A stretch of DNA of 44,267 nt from Chthoniobacterales bacterium (GTDB taxonomy: Bacteria > Verrucomicrobiota > Verrucomicrobiia > Chthoniobacterales > UBA6821): the NCBI GenBank assembly GCA_019747895.1, contig JAIEQF010000025.1:1-44267 (forward strand), in the 5' to 3' direction. Below are positions 3,197 through 44,267 of this stretch, piece by piece. The notes under the pieces were generated by a model. It was not told the origin of the DNA. It searched no databases and saw only the letters and a list, made by a program, of their open reading frames with translations. Each line of letters starts with the position of its first letter. The stretch's first letter is position 1. The position numbers and the translations under genes are program-made.

Positions 3197-3765
3197 GACA
3201 GTGTCGTCAACATCAATGCTCGTTCGTTCAATTGTTGATTCCAGCGTTGAGCAAAACTGAAACTATTAGCCAGCTCGAGAAGCTCTTGAGGCGATGCTCC
3301 TGTGGTGTCGAGATCACGGAGCTTTTTTTCAAGCGCCTCTTGCCACTTTTGAACAGAAGAAAGTACTTCATTGATCTTAAGGCGCGCATTAACCAGTTCA
3401 TCGATCATGATTGCCTTGGCTAAACTTCCTTGAATTGCTTGGTATTTTTTAAGGAGCGAGTCACTGGATTGCAATTGAGTGACAATCGTAGGAAAGAGAT
3501 CCGTTGCCACAGCTGGGAGAGGGATCGAAGAAGTTTCCGCAACACCTGCCAGATAGCGAAGGCGTTTTGCAGGATCACGTAAAATTGCTGCCGCCTCTTG
3601 AAGCTTATGAAAAGAGGCAGTAGAGCCATCGGCTTGATCAGGATGGCATAAAGCGGCGGCACGACGAAAGGCTTCTTCGATTGCGCTGGGATCAAGATGA
3701 AAAGCCCGTGATAGGCCAAGAACGCCATAGGGGTCAGTCCTGCCTTTTGTAACATTTAATGACAT
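3193..3765 (-). CDS. hscB: HscB-like J-domain co-chaperone for Fe-S cluster transfer
   Basis: 190 aa. An N-terminal J domain (about residues 11-75) carries the HPD tripeptide at 41-43 that stimulates an Hsp70 partner. The C-terminal half is helical (about 95-185) and matches the three-helix bundle that binds the scaffold IscU in HscB proteins. The length is typical for HscB. An A-type Fe-S carrier gene lies just upstream on the same strand, which supports a role in Fe-S maturation rather than general DnaJ work. The start is odd: ATG at 3765 and the first 13 codons lie inside palindrome F1, and the conserved J-domain start (DPYGVLGL) begins where the repeat ends. No other start codon is available downstream before the J domain. 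HscA and IscU are not in the window. Confidence 0.8.
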   Translation of the reverse strand: MSLNVTKGRTDPYGVLGLSRAFHLDPSAIEEAFRRAAALCHPDQADGSTASFHKLQEAAAILRDPAKRLRYLAGVAETSSIPLPAVATDLFPTIVTQLQSSDSLLKKYQAIQGSLAKAIMIDELVNARLKINEVLSSVQKWQEALEKKLRDLDTTGASPQELLELANSFSFAQRWNQQLNERALMLTTLS

Positions 3766-3829
3766 AGCATGAATTTTAAAACTAATGAAACTAGTGTCAA
3801 ATGTTACAAAAGGCAGGACTGACCCCTAT
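3727..3829. repeat. Palindromic repeat F1 (GGGGTCAGT type)
   Basis: Two 31-base arms, 3727-3757 and 3799-3829, are perfect reverse complements around a 41-base loop. Each arm begins ATAGGGGTCAGTCC at its outer side. The left arm and part of the loop encode the first residues of HscB; the right arm lies 7 bases past the iscA stop. The GGGGTCAGT outer motif is shared with F2 and F3, but the inner stem is different. Confidence 0.85.
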
Positions 3830-3836
3830 GCCTGCC

Positions 3837-4208
3837 CTATGCGGAAAAGCTTTCGCCGCAGGAGCAATGAGCAACAGCATTGGGGTTGGTGACTTTGAAG
3901 CCTCCTTTTTGAAGGTCATCGCTGTAGTCGAGTTCGGAACCGCTGACAAAGAGCGCGCTTTTGGGGTCAATGACAATGCGTACGCTTTGAGATTCGACCA
4001 TGATGTCGCGAGGAACTGGGCCATCGACGAGATCCATTTTGTATTGTAATCCTGAGCAGCCACCACCGATGATAGCGACCCGCAGAGCTCCTCCAGGACG
4101 GCCTTGGCGCGTGAGGAGTGAGATCAGCTTGTCCGCAGCAGCCTGAGTGATGCGACAGAGTTTTTCATTGCCGATGCGGTAGGGAAGGGGAGTAGCGAGA
4201 GAAGACAT
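3837..4208 (-). CDS. A-type iron-sulfur carrier (IscA/ErpA family)
   Basis: 123 aa when started at ATG 4208. HesB-like domain with the three conserved cluster-binding cysteines: Cys51 in GGGCSG, and Cys115 and Cys117 in the C-terminal CSCGESF motif. Proteins of this family accept Fe-S clusters from IscU and pass them to apo-enzymes. The gene lies 71 bases upstream of hscB on the same strand, so a small isc-type operon is plausible. A longer frame exists upstream, but it would read through a heptamer array (family A1), so the ATG after the array is preferred. I cannot tell IscA from ErpA or SufA without a tree. Confidence 0.88.
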   Translation of the reverse strand: MSSLATPLPYRIGNEKLCRITQAAADKLISLLTRQGRPGGALRVAIIGGGCSGLQYKMDLVDGPVPRDIMVESQSVRIVIDPKSALFVSGSELDYSDDLQKGGFKVTNPNAVAHCSCGESFSA

Positions 4209-4210
4209 AA

Positions 4211-4602
4211 CAGGTTGCAGGTTACAGGTTGCAGGTTGCAGGTTCAAGATAACAGCAAGGATAATTTAATTTTGAAATCCGTAATCTTAGAAAGCTCACT
4301 AATACGATATCCCTAAAATAACTGGATTATATGACGCAGGAGTTTTGACGTTGAGCAAGACGGAAGAGTGCAGCGCTATGTCTCATAACGTAAGCTCTGA
4401 CAACGAAGCTCAGCGACAAAACATACATGCTGCGTGGCAGCCGCTGGATCGACTGCTGTCAGGCAGCCCGTAAGGGCGAGCCTCGCGGGCGCGAGCGAGT
4501 TGCAACAAGTCAGATGGTCCAGTTACTTTGGGGATATGGTATAAGATTAAAAATAATCTGATCGAATTTTCTTCAGCCTGTAACCTGCAACCTGTAACCT
4601 GA
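4211..4602. repeat. Composite palindromic element D1 flanked by heptamer arrays (gene-free region)
   Basis: This fills the 405-base gap between iscA and the carbonic anhydrase gene. Outer layer: heptamer array of CAGGTTG/CAGGTTA units at 4211-4245, and the inverted version (CCTGTAA/CCTGCAA) at 4574-4602. Middle layer: inverted arms 4306-4335 and 4509-4538 match at 24 of 30 positions when one is reverse-complemented. Core (about 4336-4508): a GC-rich, hairpin-rich stretch with a homologue in the opposite orientation at about 43026-43170 (D2). The short frames that cross it contain the same peptide (SGCHAAC) in both copies, which reflects DNA homology rather than a gene. Confidence 0.75.
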
Positions 4603-6528: not shown

Positions 6529-7623
6529 TTAATAAACCAACTTCCGGTGAATCCAGATGCTTTGGAGCAATCCCAGGCTGAGCATGCTCACTAAAATAAA
6601 AGAGCCTCCGTAGCTGATCAGCGGAAGCGGGAGTCCCGTGATGGGAGTGACACCGATGGTCATGCCGATATTCATGAAGGTGTGCGTGAAGAAAAGAAAG
6701 ATGATGCCGATTGCCAGCAGTCGGCCAAAGGGATCGTTGGCTTGGTCGGCAATTGTGAGGCCTATCAGGACAAATGAGGCAAAGGCCATCAAAAGAAAAA
6801 ATCCTCCGACAAATCCATGCTGCTCGCCAAGAACCGAAAAAATAAAATCATTGTGCACGATCGTGCTCGGAAGGTAGCCGAGTTCGTTCAAAGTATTGGC
6901 AGCTTTGAATCCTTTGCCAAAGAGTCCACCAGAGCCGATCGCATTGAGAGATTGATTGATGTTCCATCCTGCGCCTTGAGGATCCAGCGAAGGATCAAGA
7001 AAAACGGTGATCCGATCTCGTTGATACGGTTTCATTCCAAAGTTAACCATCAAGGGAATGAAGGAGATGCCAAGCAAGATGAGGGTGAGGAGATAGCGAG
7101 CCGGAACATTCGCTGCATAGAGCATCGCAAAGAAAATCGGAAGCCAAACGATCGCTCCGCCTAAGTTGGGTTGGACTAAAACCAAAATCCACGGAAGACC
7201 CATGATAGCTCCACAGACAAGAATGCGAATGATAGGAGGGCGTTTTTCTGAGTTGCTAAGATAGAGAGCCAGGACCATGACTCCGCTGACAACGGCGAGC
7301 TCGGAAGGCTGGAAACGACAAAAGCCGAGATTCAACCAGCTTCTCGCGCCATAAACTTTGACGCCAAAAAGCATGACGGCAAGGAGTCCCAAGAGCGCAA
7401 CTCCATAAATCGGGATGGCACCAAGACGCACCCAGCGATAGTCAATGAAGGCTGTAGCAAAAAAAAGTGGAATGCACAAAAGCAACCAGCAAAATTGGCT
7501 CAGGGTAAAATGAGTCTCACGCATCCAAGTCGCACTGTAGATGGAATAGAGTCCAAAGGCCAGCAGCGCGAACATTAGCAGCAAAAGCGGCTTGTTGAGT
7601 GCTGAGAGTTTTTTGAAAAGCAT
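6529..7623 (-). CDS. rodA: Rod-shape determining SEDS glycosyltransferase RodA
   Basis: 364 aa with about ten hydrophobic segments, matching the SEDS family (FtsW/RodA/SpoVE). These inner-membrane enzymes polymerise lipid II into glycan strands with a partner class B PBP. RodA-type features include RSWLNLGFCRFQPSE (about 94-108), the QPxLG motif at 151-155, and the catalytic-loop Asp259 in VHNDFIF followed by GEQHGFVGG. Position 153 is Asn where most RodA proteins have Asp (QPDLG), which is unusual. The start ATG at 7623 sits 5 bases downstream (in gene sense) of a seven-copy heptamer array. No mreBCD or pbp2 gene is in view; the next genes downstream are unrelated in function. Confidence 0.9.
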   Translation of the reverse strand: MLFKKLSALNKPLLLLMFALLAFGLYSIYSATWMRETHFTLSQFCWLLLCIPLFFATAFIDYRWVRLGAIPIYGVALLGLLAVMLFGVKVYGARSWLNLGFCRFQPSELAVVSGVMVLALYLSNSEKRPPIIRILVCGAIMGLPWILVLVQPNLGGAIVWLPIFFAMLYAANVPARYLLTLILLGISFIPLMVNFGMKPYQRDRITVFLDPSLDPQGAGWNINQSLNAIGSGGLFGKGFKAANTLNELGYLPSTIVHNDFIFSVLGEQHGFVGGFFLLMAFASFVLIGLTIADQANDPFGRLLAIGIIFLFFTHTFMNIGMTIGVTPITGLPLPLISYGGSFILVSMLSLGLLQSIWIHRKLVY

Positions 7624-7628
7624 AATTG

Positions 7629-7677
7629 CAGGTTACAGGTTACAGGTTACAGGTTACAGGTTACAGGTTACAGGTTA
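7629..7677. repeat. Heptamer array A2: seven perfect CAGGTTA units
   Basis: 49 bases, exactly 7 x 7. It reads TAACCTG on the rodA coding strand and ends 5 bases before the rodA start codon. Confidence 0.95.
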
Positions 7678-7684
7678 TAGAAAA

Positions 7685-7848
7685 AATTCACAGGGATGGA
7701 AGCGATGGAAGGGATGAAAGAATTTTACATACATTAAAATAGAATTTTAAAAAATATGGATAAAACTTATTGAGATCTGATTTCAAAAAACTAAAACTCC
7801 AAACAATCTTTTTCAGCATCCCTTTCATCGCTTCTATCCCTGTGAATT
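7685..7848. repeat. Inverted-pair repeat G1
   Basis: Arms 7685-7716 and 7817-7848 match at 30 of 32 positions as reverse complements (AATTCACAGGGAT at the outer ends) around a 100-base AT-rich spacer. It occupies the gap between the OppF-like gene and rodA. A single related half-arm occurs at about 10863-10886, where it supplies the tlyA start. Confidence 0.85.
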
Positions 7849-9224: not shown

Positions 9225-10064
9225 TCATAAATTACTCCCTGTCCATTTTAATTTTTGGCGAAGGATCTGAGGAAAGCTGGTGTCTGGCAACATCGCCAGA
9301 GGAAGCGTTTTTTCAGAAGTGGTGATGGAAAGACGCTCTTGAGCCTCCATGAGTCGAGGTTCGCGACCATCGAGTGAAATGAAAATTTGCTGATCTCCAG
9401 GTGCCTCAATCGTGAGGTTGCTTTTATCATTAATCACCATCGAGCGGTTGCTAAAGACATGAGGACAGATCGGAGTGATGAGGAGTGTTTTGCTCTCTGG
9501 CATCATGACAGGGCCTCCTGCAGCCAGGGAATAGGCTGTCGAGCCAGTGGGCGTTGCGATGATGAGGCCATCGGCGTGGTATTCGGTGAGGGGAGTTCCA
9601 TCGATAGTGACGGAGAGGCGAATCAATTGCGAACGTTCACCGCGACTGATAACGATATCGTTCAACGCTAAGCCATGAAAACGATCATTGATCTTGAGTT
9701 CTACGAGACTGCGATGACTGAGGATGTATTCTTGATCGATGATGCATTCGAGTGCTCGCTGATATTCTTGTGCCGGCAAGCAGGTCAGAAAACCAAGAGA
9801 ACCAATGTTGAGTCCAAAAATAGGACGAAGATAAGGCCCAGAATGATGCATGGCGCGTAAGATGCTTCCATCTCCTCCCATCACAAGAAGCAGATCAACT
9901 TTTTCTGCAAGCATTTCTTCATTGAGGGGGGACTGTTCTTGGATCAGAGCCGCCGTGGCCCGTTCCATGAGAAAAGGAACATGGCGTGCGTGAAGCTCGG
10001 CGACAATCGTTTTGACAACGGAAGCAGCGCCGGGTTTTTGGGTATGGGCTATGAGGCCAATCAT
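9225..10064 (-). CDS. nadK: NAD kinase
   Basis: 279 aa from ATG 10064. It phosphorylates NAD to NADP in the cytoplasm. Diagnostic motifs: GGDG at 63-66 (catalytic Asp), LNIGSLGFLT at about 85-94, NDIV at 135-138, and DGLIIATPTGSTAYSLAAGGP starting at about 165. A longer frame upstream crosses a heptamer array (family A3), so the ATG just after the array is preferred; it also gives the normal family N-terminus (MIGLIAHTQKP). tlyA lies immediately upstream on the same strand; nadK and tlyA are neighbours in many bacteria, consistent with an operon. Confidence 0.95.
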   Translation of the reverse strand: MIGLIAHTQKPGAASVVKTIVAELHARHVPFLMERATAALIQEQSPLNEEMLAEKVDLLLVMGGDGSILRAMHHSGPYLRPIFGLNIGSLGFLTCLPAQEYQRALECIIDQEYILSHRSLVELKINDRFHGLALNDIVISRGERSQLIRLSVTIDGTPLTEYHADGLIIATPTGSTAYSLAAGGPVMMPESKTLLITPICPHVFSNRSMVINDKSNLTIEAPGDQQIFISLDGREPRLMEAQERLSITTSEKTLPLAMLPDTSFPQILRQKLKWTGSNL

Positions 10065-10070
10065 AGGTAG

Positions 10071-10102
10071 CAGGTTACAGGTTGCAGGTTGCAGGTTACA
10101 GG
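10071..10102. repeat. Heptamer array A3 upstream of nadK
   Basis: CAGGTTA and CAGGTTG units, four and a half in all, beginning 6 bases upstream of the nadK start and reading as CCTGTAA/CCTGCAA on the gene's coding strand. Confidence 0.9.
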
Positions 10103-10137
10103 AAAAAATGATGCCTTCCTGTTTGCTATAACCTTGT

Positions 10138-10925: not shown

Positions 10926-11014
10926 AATAGCCACAAAAGAACACAAAGAACACAAAAGAAAAATTATCTTTTCTTCAAAATTCTTTGTGATCTTTGTGTT
11001 CTTTTGTGGCTATT
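10926..11014. repeat. Palindromic repeat B1 (AATAGCCACAAAAG type)
   Basis: Left arm 10926-10960 and right arm 10981-11014 are near-perfect reverse complements. Related copies are B2 (13086-13174) and B3 (23261-23347). The right arm contains the stop codon of the HAD phosphatase gene. Confidence 0.9.
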
Positions 11015-11657
11015 CCTCTTTCTTTAATTTGAAAGCAAGCAGCTGCTCCGGATGATCAAAAAGAAATTCCGGATTCATCGAGCGGAGGACTTCAGCTGAG
11101 TTATAGCCCCAAGTCACCGCTGCTATGCGGATTGCGGTTGAATGGGAGGCCTCGATGTCACGAGTTTCATCGCCAATGTAGATGAGGTCTTCCGGCTGGA
11201 GGTGATGTTCCTTCATGATGCGCCGGATCTCACGACTTTTTCCAAAAAGTTTGGAGGAGCTCCGTAGGAATTCAAAGCAAGTGATCTGATGATGTTTTAA
11301 AAAAGCGCTGACATTGGCTTCTGAGTTGGAAGTCAAGATGCCAAGGCGAAAGCCTCGCTCATGGAGTTGCTGTAAGATTTCAGGAACATTAAGGATCGGT
11401 TCGACTTGATGGATCCGTTCATGAAATTTTACTAACCCGCGACGTGCGATCTTTGGGACTCGCCAACGGCGGATGCCTAAATGGCGAATGAGTTTTTGCG
11501 TCGTCATGTTGCGCGCTTCAGGAAGTTCTTCCTCGGGAAGCGAGCGAAAACGAAACTCTTCAGAGAGCTCATTCAAAATACGAAGAGCCATCGTCCTCGT
11601 ATCAGCGACAGTACCATCAAAATCAAAAAGGAGGACTTTGGCAGAGGAAGAGATCAC
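11010..11657 (-). CDS. HAD-superfamily phosphatase (phosphoglycolate phosphatase-like)
   Basis: 215 aa. Motif I FDFDGTVADT at 11-20 gives nucleophile Asp12 and Asp14; motif II is LGILTSNS; motif III Lys lies in the KLFGKSREI region; motif IV GDETRDIEAS binds Mg2+. The helical cap between motifs I and II fits the Gph subfamily. Substrate cannot be assigned from sequence. The start is GTG at 11657 (MISSSAKVLL). The last codons run into repeat B1, and the TAG stop is part of the B1 arm. It follows the small ORF at 11675 by 17 bases on the same strand. Confidence 0.85.
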   Translation of the reverse strand: MISSSAKVLLFDFDGTVADTRTMALRILNELSEEFRFRSLPEEELPEARNMTTQKLIRHLGIRRWRVPKIARRGLVKFHERIHQVEPILNVPEILQQLHERGFRLGILTSNSEANVSAFLKHHQITCFEFLRSSSKLFGKSREIRRIMKEHHLQPEDLIYIGDETRDIEASHSTAIRIAAVTWGYNSAEVLRSMNPEFLFDHPEQLLAFKLKKEE

Positions 11658-12008: not shown

Positions 12009-13037
12009 TTTTATTGGCCAATCCATGATCCCTTTAAATTTGCCTTCTTCAGGTTCCATGCCAAAGTTGCCAGCGACAAGTTCAGCAATGCGCTGCATCT
12101 CTTCGTTGGTCAACGTTGGCGTCTCGGAAGTCGCAGCAAATTCACGAAGTTGTTCTTCGTTGTAAATGTTAGGAAGAACAGTGGCCACGCGAGGATCGTG
12201 CAAGAGCCATTGCAGGGCGGCTTGGCCGAGCGTCCGATTTTTGTTTTCTAAGAAACGAAGTTGGTCGATTTTCTTAACACCATTTAAGAGCCAGCTGCGA
12301 GGACGGTGATTGCGGTGGTCGTTCGGTGGAAAGACGGTTTCGGCTGTATATTTTCCTTCCAGCATTCCTGAAGAGTGAGGGACCCTGATAAAAAATTTCG
12401 TTTTTGCCTGGCACTCCTCCGCAATACGATGAAGCGCTTTGCCTGGATGTTGTTCGAGCAAGTTATAGATGTGTTGCAAGACATCGGGTTGGCGTTTTTC
12501 AATCGCGGCTCCACCTTCGCCGAGCCAGCCGATGGCAGGTCCGAGGGCAACACCATCGTGGAGGATTTTTCCTTCAGCGCGAAGTGCTTCGAGGACTTCC
12601 CAAAGATCATCCTGCATCACTTGTTCGATGTGAATGTTGTGCAATTGTAAAACATCGATGTGATCGGTCTGGAGACGCTTCAGAGCGGCCTCCGTCGCTT
12701 GTCGGATGGAATCGGGACGAAAATCCTGCGGGATTTCGCGTTGACCACGACGCTCATTACCGTGGTTGATAAAATCATAACCAACTTTTGTTGCGATGAC
12801 GATGCGCTCGCGTTCGCCAACACTCGTGAATGCTTTGGCTATGAGTTCTTCACTGCGACCATTGCCGTAAGTGTCTGCTGCATCAAAAAGCGTAATGCCC
12901 AGATCCGCGCCCAAACGCATCAAACGAACAGCTTCGTCATCGGTGAAGGTTCCCCACCAGCCAGTGGAGAGGGTCCAGAGACCAAAACCAATTTCACTAA
13001 TTTTCAAATTAGAACCAGGGAGTGTGCGGTATTTCAT
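11997..13037 (-). CDS. Aldo/keto reductase
   Basis: 346 aa from ATG 13037. NADPH-dependent oxidoreductase with a TIM barrel; the catalytic tetrad is visible as Asp52 and Tyr57 (FDAADTYGNG), Lys84 (ATKVGYDF) and His133 (VLQLHN). It begins MKYRTLPGSNLKISEIGFG, the normal family N-terminus; a longer upstream frame is only translation of repeat B2. The C-terminal MDWPIKSNE ends in a heptamer array that supplies the stop codon. It is divergent from the glucosidase gene. Substrate is unknown. Confidence 0.9.
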   Translation of the reverse strand: MKYRTLPGSNLKISEIGFGLWTLSTGWWGTFTDDEAVRLMRLGADLGITLFDAADTYGNGRSEELIAKAFTSVGERERIVIATKVGYDFINHGNERRGQREIPQDFRPDSIRQATEAALKRLQTDHIDVLQLHNIHIEQVMQDDLWEVLEALRAEGKILHDGVALGPAIGWLGEGGAAIEKRQPDVLQHIYNLLEQHPGKALHRIAEECQAKTKFFIRVPHSSGMLEGKYTAETVFPPNDHRNHRPRSWLLNGVKKIDQLRFLENKNRTLGQAALQWLLHDPRVATVLPNIYNEEQLREFAATSETPTLTNEEMQRIAELVAGNFGMEPEEGKFKGIMDWPIKSNE

Positions 13038-13047
13038 AAGGAATGAT

Positions 13048-13213
13048 TTAACCACAAAGAAATCAAAAATTAAAAAGAAAAAAGAAATAGCCACAAAAGA
13101 ACACAAAGAAAACAAAAGAAAAAGCATCTTCTCTTCAAAATTCTTTGTGTTCTTTGTGTTCTTTTGTGGCTATTCTCTTCTTTGTCTTTCTTTATTGCAT
13201 TCTTTGCGGTTAA
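13048..13213. repeat. Nested palindrome B2 between divergent genes
   Basis: Inner arms (AATAGCCACAAAAGAACAC at 13086 onward; its inverse ending at 13174) match family B. An outer pair, TTAACCACAAAGAA at 13048 and TTCTTTGCGGTTAA ending at 13213, extends the palindrome. The whole lies in the promoter region shared by the aldo/keto reductase and GH63-like genes. Confidence 0.85.
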
Positions 13214-13224
13214 TTCTTTTTGCT

Positions 13225-15954
13225 ATGTCTGAAAACCAAGCAGCACTCAATCCAGAATTGCAGCGCATGAAAATGCGCGATGAAAGAAAAGAACACTGGA
13301 GTTTGTGGGGAACTTATTTGAGCGATCGGCAATGGGGGACGGTGCGTGAGGACTATTCTGCAGATGGTGATGCCTGGAACTATTTTCCATTCGAGCATTC
13401 TCGTTCTCGTGCTTATCGCTGGGGTGAAGATGGATTGCTAGGATTTACCGATCGAGATAATCAAGTCTGCTTCGCGCCCACATTTTGGAATGGAAAGGAT
13501 GAGATCCTCAAGGAACGCCCTTTCGGCCTCTCCAATCCTCAAGGAAATCACGGAGAAGATCTCAAAGAATATTATTATTTTCTCGAAAATACGCCGACCG
13601 GCAGTTTGATGCGAGCGCTGTACAAATATCCTCAAGCAGCCTTTCCTTACAAACAACTCATTGAAGAAAATGGGCTGCGTTCGAAAAATGATCCTGAGTA
13701 TGAATTGGTCGATACCGGTATTTTTAATGAAGGACGCTATTTTGATATTCTTGTCGATTACGCCAAAAACGACACCGATGACATTTGCATTCGTATTCAG
13801 GCTACGAATCGAGGTCCCGAGGCAGCGCCACTTTATATTTTGCCGACCATTTGGTTTCGCAACACATGGTCTTGGGGGGAGGGTGATCTTTCGAAGCCCG
13901 AGATGCATTTAACATCGAATGCTGAGAGTATCATTCTTCAACCGGCCAAGCTCTCCGTCCCCAACAAAGATCAAGAGATTGCCCATCCGTGGGAATTACC
14001 GGAATATAAATTATTTTTTGAGCAACCTACAGAAATCTTATTTACAGAAAATGAGACAAATGATGAAAAGATTTTTAAATCTAAAAATCCTGCGCTTTAT
14101 GTCAAAGACGCTTTTCATGAATATCTGATTCAAGGACGCAAAGAGGCTGTTAATCCGGAAAAAAAAGGAACAAAAGCAGCCCCTGTCTATTTTAAAAATG
14201 TAGCGCCTGGAGAGACATGGAGTGTGCGTCTTAGGTTGGTCTCCTCTAAAAAATTAGAACCGAACTCTACGCCCTCTTCAAAGCTTCTTGGCACTGTGAT
14301 CGATGAAGTGATTCTCCGTCGCGAAGAGGAATGTAAAAAATATTACGAACAACTAAATCCTAACATCGATCCAGATTCTGCTCTCATTCAACGGCGCGCT
14401 TTTGCAGGACTTTTTTGGTGCAAAAAGTTTTATTACTATCCCGTGATCACTTGGCTGCGAGGAGATCCCACTATGCCGCCGCCTCCGCCAGAGCGTTGGA
14501 AAGGCCGTAATATTACCTGGCAAGAGATGCATGCTCACGATTTGATCTTGATGCCTGACTCTTGGGAATATCCTTACTTTTGTAGTTGGGACTTAATGTT
14601 TCAATCACTCGCTCTTGCTGTTGTTGATCCAGCTGCTGCCAAACGACAAAACTTATTGCTCCGCGGCGAACGTTATACTTCTCCTGGGGCTCAAGCGCCT
14701 TCTTACGAGTGGTCACTTTCTGATGCAACGCCTCCCATCGATGCATGGGCCGCCTGGAGAATTTATTCTATCGAGCGAGCAAAGACCGGAAAGGGCGATC
14801 ACGCCTACCTTCGCGAATCATTTAACAAATTGCTCCTGACTTATTCTTGGTGGTGTAATCGCGTTGATAGTCGCGGAGATGATGTTTTTGCCGGGGGGTT
14901 TTTAGGGCTCGATAACATTAGCATTTTTGATCGGCGCTATGATCTTCCTGATGGCAGCAAGATCATGCAAAGTGATGGAACTGCCTGGATGTCGATGTTT
15001 GCTTTGAACATGCTCAACATTGCGATCGAATTGGCAAAGACCGATCCAGAGTACGAGCGTGTCGCCAATAAATTTTTAAGTGACTTTGTTTACCTTGCTG
15101 CAGCCTTGAATAATAAAGGTCCTGATGGCTTCACTCTTTGGGATCATGAAGATGGATTTTATTATGATGTCATTAAGCGACCTGATGGCTCTTCAGCTCA
15201 TTTAAAAGTTCGTTCGGTAGTCGGTCTGACGCCTCTTTTTGCTGTAGAGAGTTTTGATGCAGCGACCGTGGATAATTTCAAATCCTTGCTCAAGCGATTT
15301 GATTGGTTTCGTCATCATCGTCCTGAATTGATGTTTCAATTGCAGCATGTCCAAGAAGTCATTGAGGGCCGTCGTCTGGTTTCTTTGGTACCACCAGACC
15401 GACTTAAAAGAATTTGCAAACGTCTCTTTGATGAAAACGAATTTCTTTCACCACATGGAATCAGAGCTCTTTCAAAATATTATTTGGATCATCCCTACAC
15501 CTTCACCGAAGGGGAGACCAGTGCGACTATTACTTATTCGCCAGCAGAAAGCCCTTCCGGGATGTTTGGGGGAAATTCCAATTGGCGTGGGCCTGTTTGG
15601 ATGCCGATGAATTTTCTTATTATCGAAGCGCTCCAGAAATTTGGTTTTTATTATGGAGATAAATTGAAAATCGAATTTCCAACAGGAAGCGGTGTCATGA
15701 TGAATCTTTGGGACATCTCGCTAGAATTGGAACGGCGTGTCGTGAGTCTTTTTGTTAAAGATAAAAAAGGCCGGCGACCTTTTAATGGTGATGTTGACCT
15801 TTTTCAAAATGATCCTCATTGGAAAGATGAAATTCTCTTTTATGAATATTTTCATGGAGACACCGGCGCTGGTTTGGGAGCAAGTCATCAGACAGGCTGG
15901 ACGGCACTTGTGGCGAAGTTAATTCACCAGTTGTCTTCGTTTGAGCAGCTCTAG
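13225..15954 (+). CDS. GH63-like (MGH1-type) glucosidase
   Basis: 909 aa from ATG 13225. The N-terminal third is a beta-rich domain (LWGTYLSDRQWGTVREDYS, HSRSRAYRWGEDG); the C-terminal two thirds form an (alpha/alpha)6-type catalytic domain with motifs seen in bacterial GH63/GH37-like enzymes: FCSWDLMFQSLALAVVDP (candidate acid Asp), YEWSLSDATPPIDAWA, and GNSNWRGPVWMPMNF. Such enzymes hydrolyse alpha-glucosides; the natural substrate here is unknown. No signal peptide is seen at this start, so it is probably cytoplasmic. A longer upstream frame reads through repeat B2 and the divergent gene and is not credible. The TAG stop lies in the left arm of repeat C1. Confidence 0.82.
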   Translation: MSENQAALNPELQRMKMRDERKEHWSLWGTYLSDRQWGTVREDYSADGDAWNYFPFEHSRSRAYRWGEDGLLGFTDRDNQVCFAPTFWNGKDEILKERPFGLSNPQGNHGEDLKEYYYFLENTPTGSLMRALYKYPQAAFPYKQLIEENGLRSKNDPEYELVDTGIFNEGRYFDILVDYAKNDTDDICIRIQATNRGPEAAPLYILPTIWFRNTWSWGEGDLSKPEMHLTSNAESIILQPAKLSVPNKDQEIAHPWELPEYKLFFEQPTEILFTENETNDEKIFKSKNPALYVKDAFHEYLIQGRKEAVNPEKKGTKAAPVYFKNVAPGETWSVRLRLVSSKKLEPNSTPSSKLLGTVIDEVILRREEECKKYYEQLNPNIDPDSALIQRRAFAGLFWCKKFYYYPVITWLRGDPTMPPPPPERWKGRNITWQEMHAHDLILMPDSWEYPYFCSWDLMFQSLALAVVDPAAAKRQNLLLRGERYTSPGAQAPSYEWSLSDATPPIDAWAAWRIYSIERAKTGKGDHAYLRESFNKLLLTYSWWCNRVDSRGDDVFAGGFLGLDNISIFDRRYDLPDGSKIMQSDGTAWMSMFALNMLNIAIELAKTDPEYERVANKFLSDFVYLAAALNNKGPDGFTLWDHEDGFYYDVIKRPDGSSAHLKVRSVVGLTPLFAVESFDAATVDNFKSLLKRFDWFRHHRPELMFQLQHVQEVIEGRRLVSLVPPDRLKRICKRLFDENEFLSPHGIRALSKYYLDHPYTFTEGETSATITYSPAESPSGMFGGNSNWRGPVWMPMNFLIIEALQKFGFYYGDKLKIEFPTGSGVMMNLWDISLELERRVVSLFVKDKKGRRPFNGDVDLFQNDPHWKDEILFYEYFHGDTGAGLGASHQTGWTALVAKLIHQLSSFEQL

Positions 15955-16094
15955 TGCATTGTAAATTCTACTATTGCGGCGAAGAGCTGCGTTGCGCCGG
16001 TGCTCAACTCGTCGAGTATGTTCATATACACTCCTCGTCTGTGCGCCGTCGCGCCTTGCTCTTCATCCGCACTAGCGAATTTCCAACGCACTAG
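15951..16094. repeat. Palindromic repeat C1 with copy-specific arms
   Basis: Arms 15951-15968 and 16077-16094 (18 bases, beginning CTAGTGC) match at 16 of 18 as reverse complements. The 108-base core (15969-16076; contains GCGCCGGTGCTC and CATATACACTCCTCG) is shared with C2, C3 and C4, but the arms are not. Confidence 0.88.
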
Positions 16095-18604: not shown

Positions 18605-18652
18605 AACTGACAACGTTCCGTTGTCAGTTAACTCTGCGAAAGCAGGAGTTAA
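18605..18652. terminator. Twin hairpins at the holA 3' end
   Basis: AACTGACAAC / GTTGTCAGTT form a perfect 10-bp stem with a 5-base loop (18605-18629). A second stem pairs TTAACTC with GAGTTAA plus TGC with GCA (18628-18652), sharing two bases with the first and overlapping the holA stop. There is no long T-run on either strand, so termination is a guess; it may act as an attenuator or RNA 3' end protector. Confidence 0.4.
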
Positions 18653-19887
18653 ATGATGTTGGTAGGTGCCACCAGCCTCACCACCAACTGCGTGAGGAGC
18701 ATCTCTTCTCCTCCCTGGCTGCGAAGCAGCTGCTGATTGGTGTTGCGGCAGACTAAGAATCCTTCTTGGAGTTCCTGTTCTTGAAATTTATTTGCATTCA
18801 CTGCTGAAATGCCTAGGCCATAAGCATTCAACGAGCCATCTTTTTTGCGAGGAAGGTGAGCTGTTTCTGAAGCTGGAAGTTTTTGAAGAACCGAGGCAAA
18901 AAATTGAGGCTTCTCAGGGGTCTTCAAACGATGTTTGGTGAGGAGGCTTTTTGCTAGGAGGAGATTACGAACGGTTGGTACGATGGCCGCAAGCAAAATT
19001 CCCATGGCACTCTCGCCTTGACGGAGTAATTGTTTCAGCGTCTTGAGAGAGAGCGGAAGATCACGTTTTGCAATGGCATTACTCAAATCAAAAATTCCGC
19101 CCGTGCGTGTTTGAGGGACAAGATCCCGAACCATTTCTTCATGAATCACGGCTCCTTCTCCAGCAGCTGTGATTAATTTTGCCAACTCTGACTCCATTTG
19201 CCCAGAGTTTGCTCCGACGCGTGCTGCCAAAATTTCAGCAGCTTCCTCATCTAAACGAACACCACGTTCTCGTGCCCGTGAGGTGACCCAGGAGATGACA
19301 TCATTTTCGGTAGCATTAAATCCAAAGTCCGGTTTATCACAAAGAGTCGTGATGGCGAGCGCTGATAAGCTTTTATAAAAAGCACGTCGCTTGTCGGGTT
19401 CTGGAGCGCTCATCAGAAAACGAGTTCCTTCTGGTAATTCTGACTTCAAGATTTTTAATAATTTTTCGAGTGCCTCTTGAGTGGCTTCAGAACGGCCTGC
19501 AGGGCTCTCTTTTAAAAAAGTCGCGCTTTTGAGCCAGACCAATTTTCCTCCTCCTAAAAAAGGAAAAGTCTGCAAACTTTGGATTGTTTCATGAATCGCG
19601 TTAACAGAATGGTCTACGGTTTCTCCTGGAGCCTCGATGACTTCCATGCCAAAAGCATCGTCACTAGGTGCTAGCTCGATCGCCAGCGCTTGGGCTTTGC
19701 GGCGGACCTCGGCATCATCGCTTCCAGTAACGAAAAAAATAGAGCGTGTCCCAAAATGTTTCAAATCGCGCACTGCGTCGTCGCTCCGGTGCTCGTCTCG
19801 TCGAGTATTTCCATATACACTCCTCGGCTGTGCTCTTCGCTCCTCGCATTGCATCGATTTTAAATCATTTTTGGACACGCTCTTCAT
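18649..19887 (-). CDS. holA: DNA polymerase III delta subunit (clamp loader)
   Basis: 412 aa. The conserved fold starts at FFVTGSDDAEVRRKA (about residue 52) and continues with FPFLGGGKLVWLKSATF, RFLMSAPEPDKR and GGIFDLSNAIAKRD, all fitting HolA, the subunit that opens the beta sliding clamp. The first 50 or so residues are not native: they are the translation of repeat C2 and its arms. ATG at 19887 and the next 10 codons come from an inverted copy of holA's own 5' coding DNA. No other good start is seen closer to the conserved domain, so the gene appears to use a repeat-derived N-terminus. It is followed by the Asp-box gene and preceded by uvrB. Confidence 0.85.
   Translation of the reverse strand: MKSVSKNDLKSMQCEERRAQPRSVYGNTRRDEHRSDDAVRDLKHFGTRSIFFVTGSDDAEVRRKAQALAIELAPSDDAFGMEVIEAPGETVDHSVNAIHETIQSLQTFPFLGGGKLVWLKSATFLKESPAGRSEATQEALEKLLKILKSELPEGTRFLMSAPEPDKRRAFYKSLSALAITTLCDKPDFGFNATENDVISWVTSRARERGVRLDEEAAEILAARVGANSGQMESELAKLITAAGEGAVIHEEMVRDLVPQTRTGGIFDLSNAIAKRDLPLSLKTLKQLLRQGESAMGILLAAIVPTVRNLLLAKSLLTKHRLKTPEKPQFFASVLQKLPASETAHLPRKKDGSLNAYGLGISAVNANKFQEQELQEGFLVCRNTNQQLLRSQGGEEMLLTQLVVRLVAPTNII
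19741..19883. repeat. Palindromic repeat C2 inside the 5' end of holA
   Basis: Arms 19741-19768 and 19855-19883 begin AGAGCGTGTCC and match closely as reverse complements (one 1-base gap and a few substitutions). The core shares TCGTCGAGTATTT and CATATACACTCCTCGGCTGT with the other C copies. It is read in frame by holA. Confidence 0.88.
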
Positions 19888-23260: not shown

Positions 23261-23347
23261 AATAGCCACAAAAGAACACAAAGAGCACAAAAGAAACGAT
23301 TTGATTATATGCCATTTTTGTGTTCTTTGTGTTCTTTTGTGGCTATT
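23261..23347. repeat. Palindromic repeat B3 between mqnE and mqnA
   Basis: Begins AATAGCCACAAAAGAACAC and ends with the inverse (…GTGTTCTTTTGTGGCTATT). It nearly fills the 97-base gap and could form a long RNA hairpin in an mqnE-mqnA transcript. Confidence 0.9.
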
Positions 23348-23355
23348 CTCTTTGA

Positions 23356-27004: not shown

Positions 27005-27147
27005 AACTTTGTTTTTAAATTCGCTGAGGCAGATGAGGAACAAGGAGCGGCGGCGCACAGCGGCTGAGTGTATAGCTAATACTCGATGACGCGAGCACCG
27101 ACGCGACACAGTTCCTCGCTGCATCAGTAGAATTTAAAAACAAAGTT
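27005..27147. repeat. Palindromic repeat C3 (inverted orientation) with 18-bp perfect arms
   Basis: Arms 27005-27022 and 27130-27147 (AACTTTGTTTTTAAATTC) are perfect reverse complements. The 107-base core is the family C core read on the other strand (GAGTGTATAG, ACTCGATGACGCGAGCACC). It ends within the metI stop codon. The 233-base gap between metI and the DUF2442 remnant holds this and little else. Confidence 0.9.
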
Positions 27148-34304: not shown

Positions 34305-35092
34305 ACGCCATCGAAGTCGAAAATTTAACCTGTGCTTATGGAGATAAGACCATTTTAAAAGATGTCTCTTTTTCGGTGAAGGAGAGAGAGATTCTCTTTA
34401 TCATTGGTGGGAGTGGTTGTGGTAAGAGCACACTCTTGCGTTGCATGATTGGATTACTCGCTCCAAAAAGTGGAGAGATTCGTTATTTTGAGAAAAGTTT
34501 TTTGAATGCTTCTGAGGAAGAGCAGCGCCATATTTTGAAATCGTTTGGCGTCCTTTACCAAAGTAATGCGCTTTGGAGTTCGATGACGATTGCTGAAAAT
34601 ATTGCTTTGCCTTTAGAACAATACACAACTCACACCAAAACAGAGATTGCAGAAAAGGTTGCTTTGAAATTAGAACAAGTGGGACTGCCAGGAGTGCAAG
34701 AGCTTTATCCGCGAGAGTTGAGTGGCGGGATGAAAAAGAGAGCGGCTCTAGCGCGAGCGCTGGCACTCGATCCTAAAATTGTTTTCTTTGATGAACCGAC
34801 AAGCGGCCTGGATCCCGTTACAGCGCGAGGAATGGATGATCTGATTTTAGAGGTGAGTAAAACATTTGGAACAACGATGGTCATCGTTTCGCATGAGCTT
34901 GCTAGTATTTTCAGCCTTGCTCATCGCGTGATCTTGCTTGATGGAGAAGTTCAAGGCATCATTGCTGAAGGGAGCCCCGAAAAATTAGCTGCAGAAAGGA
35001 ATGATAAACGTGTTGCTAATTTTTTTACCAACAGGAAATCAAACATAAATCCCGCTAGCTTTTGGGGTCAGTGTTCAAATTTCAAATTTTAA
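34301..35092 (+). CDS. mlaF: Lipid-asymmetry ABC transporter ATPase (MlaF family)
   Basis: 263 aa from ATG 34301, which overlaps the mlaE stop. Walker A GGSGCGKST at 36-44, signature LSGGMKKRAALARAL, Walker B KIVFFDEPTSGLDP. MlaF energises lipid transport by the MlaE-MlaD complex. A longer upstream frame is mlaE in another register. The C-terminus is odd: the last ten residues (FWGQCSNFKF, roughly) and the stop codon are encoded by the left arm of palindrome F2, so the native tail has been replaced. Confidence 0.93.
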   Translation: MNAIEVENLTCAYGDKTILKDVSFSVKEREILFIIGGSGCGKSTLLRCMIGLLAPKSGEIRYFEKSFLNASEEEQRHILKSFGVLYQSNALWSSMTIAENIALPLEQYTTHTKTEIAEKVALKLEQVGLPGVQELYPRELSGGMKKRAALARALALDPKIVFFDEPTSGLDPVTARGMDDLILEVSKTFGTTMVIVSHELASIFSLAHRVILLDGEVQGIIAEGSPEKLAAERNDKRVANFFTNRKSNINPASFWGQCSNFKF

Positions 35093-35148
35093 ATGTGACT
35101 CTAACTTTGAAAAAATTAAAAATTTGAAATTTGAACACTGACCCCAAA
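35060..35148. repeat. Palindromic repeat F2
   Basis: Arms 35060-35090 and 35118-35148 begin TTTTGGGGTCAGTGTTC and are near-perfect reverse complements. Nearly identical to F3; the two bracket mlaD. It ends 7 bases before the mlaD ATG. Confidence 0.92.
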
Positions 35149-35155
35149 ATTGTTT

Positions 35156-35824: not shown

Positions 35825-35855
35825 AGCAGGCTGTAGGCTATAGACTGGAAACAGC

Positions 35856-35938
35856 TTTTGGGGTCAGTGTTCAAATTTCAAATTTTAAATGTGACTCTAA
35901 CTTTCAAAAAATTTGAAATTTGAACACTGACCCCAAAA
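35856..35938. repeat. Palindromic repeat F3
   Basis: Arms 35856-35886 and 35908-35938. Same sequence as F2 apart from a few bases in the loop. It lies between mlaD and ftsK. Confidence 0.92.
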
Positions 35939-35991
35939 TTGTTGTTCGTGCGTGATTGCAAAAAAGCATTTTTTGCTGCATCATAACCCGA

Positions 35992-39147: not shown

Positions 39148-39613
39148 GGTGTTTAAGGCTAGTAGTCGTTCAATTGACTGGTAAAGCGCTAGTTTCGTAT
39201 AACTGCTTTTGTAGAAAGTTGAAAGGTTGAGCCGCTGCTGAAGCAGCTGTTGAGCGCCACTTGCGCGGCTGTTGAGAAGACCCCATCCTGTTAACCTCTC
39301 AACTCCCCAACAAAACCTACGATATAAGATTGTGTTTTCTTTTGTACAATCTGGTCTTCTGAACGGATATAGTCAAATTACTTAGAAATTACGGGGAAGA
39401 ACGCAGGAATTTTTAGAAAAGGCCAGGCCGAAGACCAAGCGCTATCTAAACGATAACGTGACGGGATGAGAACGCAGTCTTTTCCTAAAAAGGACAAGTC
39501 AGTTGCTTGTAAGTTCTAAGTAATTTGACTATACTAAGGCTATGCAGCTTGAGGAGTTTTTTTCTCTGCTTTGAAAATGTGCCAATAGGACGGACCGAAC
39601 CCTTTGATTTGAC
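39148..39613. other. 466-base gene-free stretch
   Basis: No credible gene. It holds a loose GTTGA-rich inverted pair (about 39219-39233 and 39290-39306) around GC-rich hairpins (GCTGCTGAAGCAGC), and element E1 (39370-39531). The remainder has no recognised feature. Confidence 0.7.
39370..39531. mobile_element. E1: 162-bp MITE-like element with terminal inverted repeats
   Basis: Ends TAGTCAAATTACTTAG… and …CTAAGTAATTTGACTA are inverted copies (about 22 of 23 positions). It is flanked on both sides by TA, as expected for TA-targeting (IS630/Tc1-like) transposition. No coding capacity. Its right-end sequence recurs, inverted, at 44195 to the window edge (E2) with one mismatch in the first ~70 bases. 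Confidence 0.85.
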
Positions 39614-44119: not shown

Positions 44120-44134
44120 AGCATTCCTAAACTC

Positions 44135-44194
44135 TACTGATGCGGCGAAGAGCTATGTCGCGCCGGTGCTCGCGCCATCGAGTATTTTCATATA
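44135..44194. repeat. Repeat C4, interrupted by element E2
   Basis: TACTGATGCGGCGAAGAGCT to CATATA is the left part of the family C core. At the point where C1 and C2 continue with CACTCCTCG, C4 instead enters the TAGTCAAATTACTTAG terminus of E2. Confidence 0.85.
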
Positions 44195-44267
44195 TAGTCA
44201 AATTACTTAGAACTTACAAGCAATTGACTTGTCCTTTTTAGGAAAAGACTGCGTTCTCATCCCGTCA
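44195..44267. mobile_element. E2: second copy of TIR element, cut by the window edge
   Basis: From TAGTCAAATTACTTAG to the edge, matches the reverse complement of the E1 right end with one mismatch. It sits after TA within repeat C4. Whether this is a full IS or another short MITE cannot be seen. Confidence 0.8.

Follow-up and report, generated by a model that had tools for sequence, protein, structure and literature searches.

Does the N-terminus of a replication protein stem from a repeat, and if so, from which kind? The question is raised by holA (18649..19887, minus strand), which lies in a stretch of 44,267 nucleotides from a freshwater bacterium of the Chthoniobacterales that was analyzed as a whole (the window). 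Its predicted product of 412 aa, most likely including an element-coded N-terminus, was recognized as the DNA polymerase III delta subunit by its Pfam domains (PF06144 and PF21694) and by its match to PDB 3zh9_B ("DELTA"). The ORF starts just upstream of an inverted repeat (25 nt, 88% complementary; 19741-19765 and 19859-19883) and is free of stop codons through it up to the conserved delta domain, with 49 residues preceding I50. That the repeat is real and that the frame crosses all of it before the conserved domain had been noticed in a sequence-only reading, and both observations held; its account of where the repeat and the start codon came from did not.

The inverted repeat at the 5′ end of holA

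Based on the inverted repeat and on comparison with about 100 further copies, the boundaries of a palindromic element were set at 19742..19882 (minus strand; 141 bp, corresponding to 47 codons and in-frame at the 5′ end of holA). It begins and ends with GAGCGTGTCC...GGACACGCTC, its terminal inverted repeat arms being located at 19859..19882 (5′) and 19742..19765 (3′; both minus strand). The element strand is predicted to fold at −56.7 kcal/mol (z = −7.2 versus its own shuffles), and Rfam contained no match for it. On the side facing holA, the element abuts a TA dinucleotide (19740..19741, minus strand), the target site; the opposite flank (19883-19884) reads AA instead, which is why a duplication is not visible at this locus. 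The proposed ATG start (19885..19887, minus strand) and the two bases between it and the element are outside the element.

The sequence-only reading had derived the start codon and the first codons of holA from an inverted copy of the gene itself. Despite the fact that the inverted repeat is local and includes sequence adjoining holA, this origin is refuted. The ATG (19887-19885) is not within the repeat, whose arm extends no further than 19883, or 19882 when the element boundary is used; near-identical arms were found at other loci of the family, e.g., CATTTTGGGACATGTTCT at C43:46461-46600; and holA of relatives lacking the element contains no such sequence. Because they recur at other loci, the arms are the terminal inverted repeats of an element and not inverted holA.

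Copies, distribution, and target site of the element family

The family occupied at least 49 places in the genome containing the window (G000; own count, with profile and covariance model searches included), and a 147-bp stretch gave at least 40 matches there among the matches listed; more than 100 distinct copies were found in the genus. Within the window, further copies were located at 15954..16091 (minus strand; 138 bp, flanked by TA at either end, with no long ORF running through it in frame) and 27006..27146 (plus strand), and a partial one at 44122..44200 (minus strand), which is broken off at a sequence resembling an IS630-type terminus (TAGTCAAATTACTTAGAA). The latter, and likewise 39459-39533, ends in a manner reminiscent of disruption of the element by an insertion sequence.

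Other repeats were present as well. A second inverted-repeat family (AATAGCCACAAAAGAACACAAAGAACACAAA) was observed at 10926-11015, 13086-13175 (close to where a long ORF, 12871-15954, begins), and 23261-23350 of the window, short inverted repeats with GGGGTCAGTG or GGGGTCAGTC at 35057-35154, 35853-35943, and 3726-3830, and tandem 7-mers (ACAGGTT/GCAGGTT) at 4196-4258, 7621-7697, and 10063-10111. In the sister genome (G005), a high-copy repeat (AGAATTATACCATCTCCCTAAAATAACTGG...) with inverted partners occurs in many places and adjoins one copy of the element (L106, from about position 437).

When genomes were searched with the covariance model, the family was found in all six of the genus, and the 207 other genomes of the order that were covered yielded no copy except for one marginal match (G014); the family is confined to one verrucomicrobial genus of the order. 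All genomes compared are drafts, mostly metagenome-assembled (MAGs). In a collection-wide pattern scan, the matches listed were from Verrucomicrobia MAG records, several of which originate from lake samples, going by their names, and from one contig labeled Alphaproteobacteria (JAIEMR010000182.1). Horizontal transfer to Alphaproteobacteria was considered and rejected: the contig is 100% identical to contig C5 of G000 over 4.9 kb and is likely misbinned or mislabeled.

Most copies measured 135-148 bp. TA flanked 42 of 109 copies on both sides and 47 of 109 on one side, but the boundary search favored TA, so that the weight rests on empty sites, which close relatives show for insertions. At one such locus, the empty site GAGGTTAAGAGG corresponds to GAGGTTA[136 bp]TAAGAGG when filled, the TA being duplicated; in dxs, empty TCTAGCTC corresponds to filled CTA[136 bp]TAGCTC (site CTAG). 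Insertion at TA with duplication of the TA was thereby shown at several loci. The asnB locus was found in three states: G000 has the complete element, G005 only TA-GGTC-TA, and another relative (G002) neither; the short form in G005 is possibly the footprint of an excision or a hairpin deletion that kept the frame. Only three insertions shared between G000 and G005 were found among the copies examined, one of them that in holA, where the two genomes exhibit 99% DNA identity.

In-frame insertions and the start of HolA

Of 100 near-full copies, 37 were located in-frame inside long ORFs (a minimum of 170 codons overall, with no fewer than 25 flanking the copy on each side), in both orientations and mostly within recognizable conserved genes. 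Of the remaining copies, at most seven had a long open stretch on either side on the same strand, and intergenic positions are conceivable for some of them. Host genes (a non-exhaustive list, named by us from their Pfam domains; a few host ORFs had no Pfam match) included secA, aconitase, glucan phosphorylase, PEP carboxylase, RNase R, uvrA, coaE, rho, phosphomannomutase, dxs, dnaX, nnrD, asnB, hom, ackA, ribD, sua5, an arginase-family gene, rmlD, rsmE, and ogt. At 20 copies analyzed with Rfam, only tRNAs were found nearby, and none of these copies was inserted into an RNA gene. When aligned to PDB chains, the element peptide formed a cleanly delimited extra segment in AckA (query 214-259 versus chain 190/189), in SecA (query 774-818 versus 676/674), and in aconitase. 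In G005, a second element is present midway in holA, antisense and in-frame (L011, 1359-1500), so the predicted HolA of this genome (459 residues) carries a pair of in-frame elements that differ in orientation. In a PD-(D/E)XK family gene of G003 and G004, the in-frame element was observed in three similar copies (L049, L057, and L061; PF12784 in L057), which may carry it along.

The positions of these copies midway in conserved enzymes would also be expected if they were removed after transcription or translation, as introns or inteins are, leaving the proteins unaffected. This is very improbable because the copies preserve the reading frame and lack stop codons whichever way they point, a restriction that removal from the RNA would not impose, and because neither an intron or ribozyme (Rfam) nor an intein domain was recognized. 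Predicted peptides that would mark translation through the element are SVYGNTR, or HFGTR joined to SIFFVTGSDDAEVR.

Whether HolA begins with the element-coded segment depends on the start codon used. In relatives lacking the element, leaders of about 8-23 residues precede the conserved FVTGSDE-type core. The extension is not shared by lineages without the repeat: G002, G003, G004, and the sister genus all have short leaders of different sequence. The genome of G001 (same genus, 97% complete) had no holA match at E 0.001. The extension of about 50 residues proposed earlier corresponds to 49 residues of open frame and is likely but unproven, since translation could also start within the element, at a GTG (codon 39) or a TTG (codon 42), and ribosome-binding sites give no guidance here, most genes of the window having none. 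It is accordingly conceivable, albeit rather unlikely, that the insertion parted holA from its old start and that the element itself now supplies it. A GGAG located 10 nt before the GTG has the best duplex energy of the candidates (−5.8), the resulting leader of 8-11 residues would resemble those of the relatives, and a simple TA duplication, adding 143 bp, would put the present ATG out of the ancestral frame. On the other hand, this ribosome-binding cue is weak where most genes have no such site, the ATG frame crosses the element without interruption in G000 as well as in G005, and dozens of other genes carry the element midway, where it must be read through. An internal start would take away most of the extension.

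The locus is most probably explained by a non-autonomous, TA-targeting palindromic mobile element, confined to the genus, which inserted behind the holA start and whose in-frame insertions are tolerated. An element of ∼140 bp would have inserted directly behind the start in the ancestor of G000 and G005, with a net gain of 141 bp (47 codons) and therefore with the frame kept; the HolA N-terminus would then most likely comprise about 48 element-coded residues. The ancestral gene presumably began with ATG AAT ATT TTT TTC, and one TA copy would have been lost. This exact 5′ end was not found in any relative, and the sequence upstream of holA in G002 differs from the uvrB end present upstream in G000. 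In-frame copies free of stops would be tolerated, and other copies in genes would be purged.

Arms, mobilization, and related systems

The left arms of different copies were only 61% identical. The two arms of each copy, in contrast, matched one another at 83%, versus 58% across copies (gapped comparison, 24 nt), and RNAalifold predicted 35 consensus pairs for 34 copies, 25 of them with two-sided changes. Swapping between arm and core was dropped as a candidate because the top cases of the ungapped comparison were register shifts. Template switching, a process described for the homogenization of inverted-repeat arms (PMC8604942), would account for the matched arms, and so would selection on a hairpin substrate; the data fit both. 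Either correction templated by the hairpin or selection acting on it may maintain the complementarity within each copy. A tentative extension, possible at best, is that of mobile protein-coding palindromes specific to this genus of Verrucomicrobiota, with termini of no set sequence, whose machinery reads the hairpin and not the arm sequence, so that matched arms would drift freely while insertion at TA goes on, in-frame insertion into essential genes included.

In all three copies shared by G000 and G005, the element had diverged less than its flanks. In holA, none of the 48 codons of the element region was changed synonymously and two were changed nonsynonymously, versus 34 synonymously and six nonsynonymously changed codons among the next 199. 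Few sites are involved, and they suggest that constraint or homogenization acts at the level of the DNA and not on the peptide. This conservation, together with the strong covariation and the fold (z-score given above), would also be consistent with a structured RNA whose hairpin is kept for a role at the RNA level. We consider such a function unlikely: copies are found in both orientations inside genes and also between genes, they turn over rapidly, Rfam does not recognize them, and wobble is rare among the outer stem pairs (98 GT versus 1,484 Watson-Crick), which fits a process at the DNA level better.

As a mobile element, the family is presumably mobilized by an enzyme acting in trans. The IS630 family inserts at TA. 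Its copies here end in TAGTCAATTAAATTGAAAAGGG or TAGTCAAATTACTTAGAA, unlike the element arms, and none of them qualified as an autonomous partner with the same termini as the element. Because both IS630 (PF13358) and Y1 transposases (PF01797) are present only in the same three copy-rich genomes, co-occurrence singles out neither.

The sequence-only reading had likened the holA repeat to the Rickettsia palindromic elements (RPEs), stem-loops of 105-146 bp fused in-frame to conserved rickettsial genes and, in at least one case, ending in TA (PMC2229807; see also PMC10969869); a guanylate kinase carrying an RPE was reported to be active (PMC2229807). With more than a third of the near-full copies in-frame and with empty sites in close relatives, this analogy is well supported and extends further than could be seen from one sequence. 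The element shares with RPEs the size range, the palindromic structure with terminal inverted repeats, the open frames, and the in-frame location in conserved genes. It differs in its host, a genus of Verrucomicrobia and thus of a different phylum than Rickettsia, in arms that vary strongly between copies yet match within each, in the use of both orientations, and in a TA duplication visible by comparison with empty sites. With the TA-targeting MITEs RUP, Correia/NEMIS, and ERIC, which are small, lack a transposase, and have terminal inverted repeats with TA at the ends (PMC2229807), it shares the inverted repeats and the TA target-site duplication; it differs from them in that its ends vary in sequence, in that one copy in three is intragenic, and in that comparison with IS630 ends revealed no parent insertion sequence with the same termini. 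By description, the family works like RPEs and TA-type MITEs but, being from another phylum, is not classed as an RPE.

Other systems are more distant. The QMITEs of Coxiella are MITE-type repeats that are sometimes fused in-frame to ORFs, described as occasional (PMC5896051), but QMITE1 measures 300-400 bp and QMITE2 has direct repeats of 7-11 nt. PARCEL repeats are palindromic and coding (PMC2996958) but consist of tandem 25-residue repeats in unassigned ORFs, whereas the present element is dispersed in housekeeping genes. REPs (20-40 bp with GTAG or CGTC tags; PMC3733652) are likewise dispersed hairpins, and Y1 transposases, as in REP/RAYT systems, occur in three of the genomes, but the element is about 140 bp long, has TA ends, and lies outside the REP definition. 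Coding palindromes have also been reported from Wolbachia and Methanocaldococcus jannaschii. Among the open-licence papers found, none was noticed that describes such elements in Verrucomicrobia.

In the literature found, in-frame palindromic insertions on such a scale are known mainly from Rickettsia; here, they occur in a second, unrelated lineage. Arms that match within a copy yet diverge between copies raise the question of whether the ends are recognized by shape or by sequence. With some 50 copies, sister species in which sites are empty, and one gene struck twice, the family offers a comparative test of protein segments born from mobile DNA, and the same comparison probes how well enzymes tolerate new segments.
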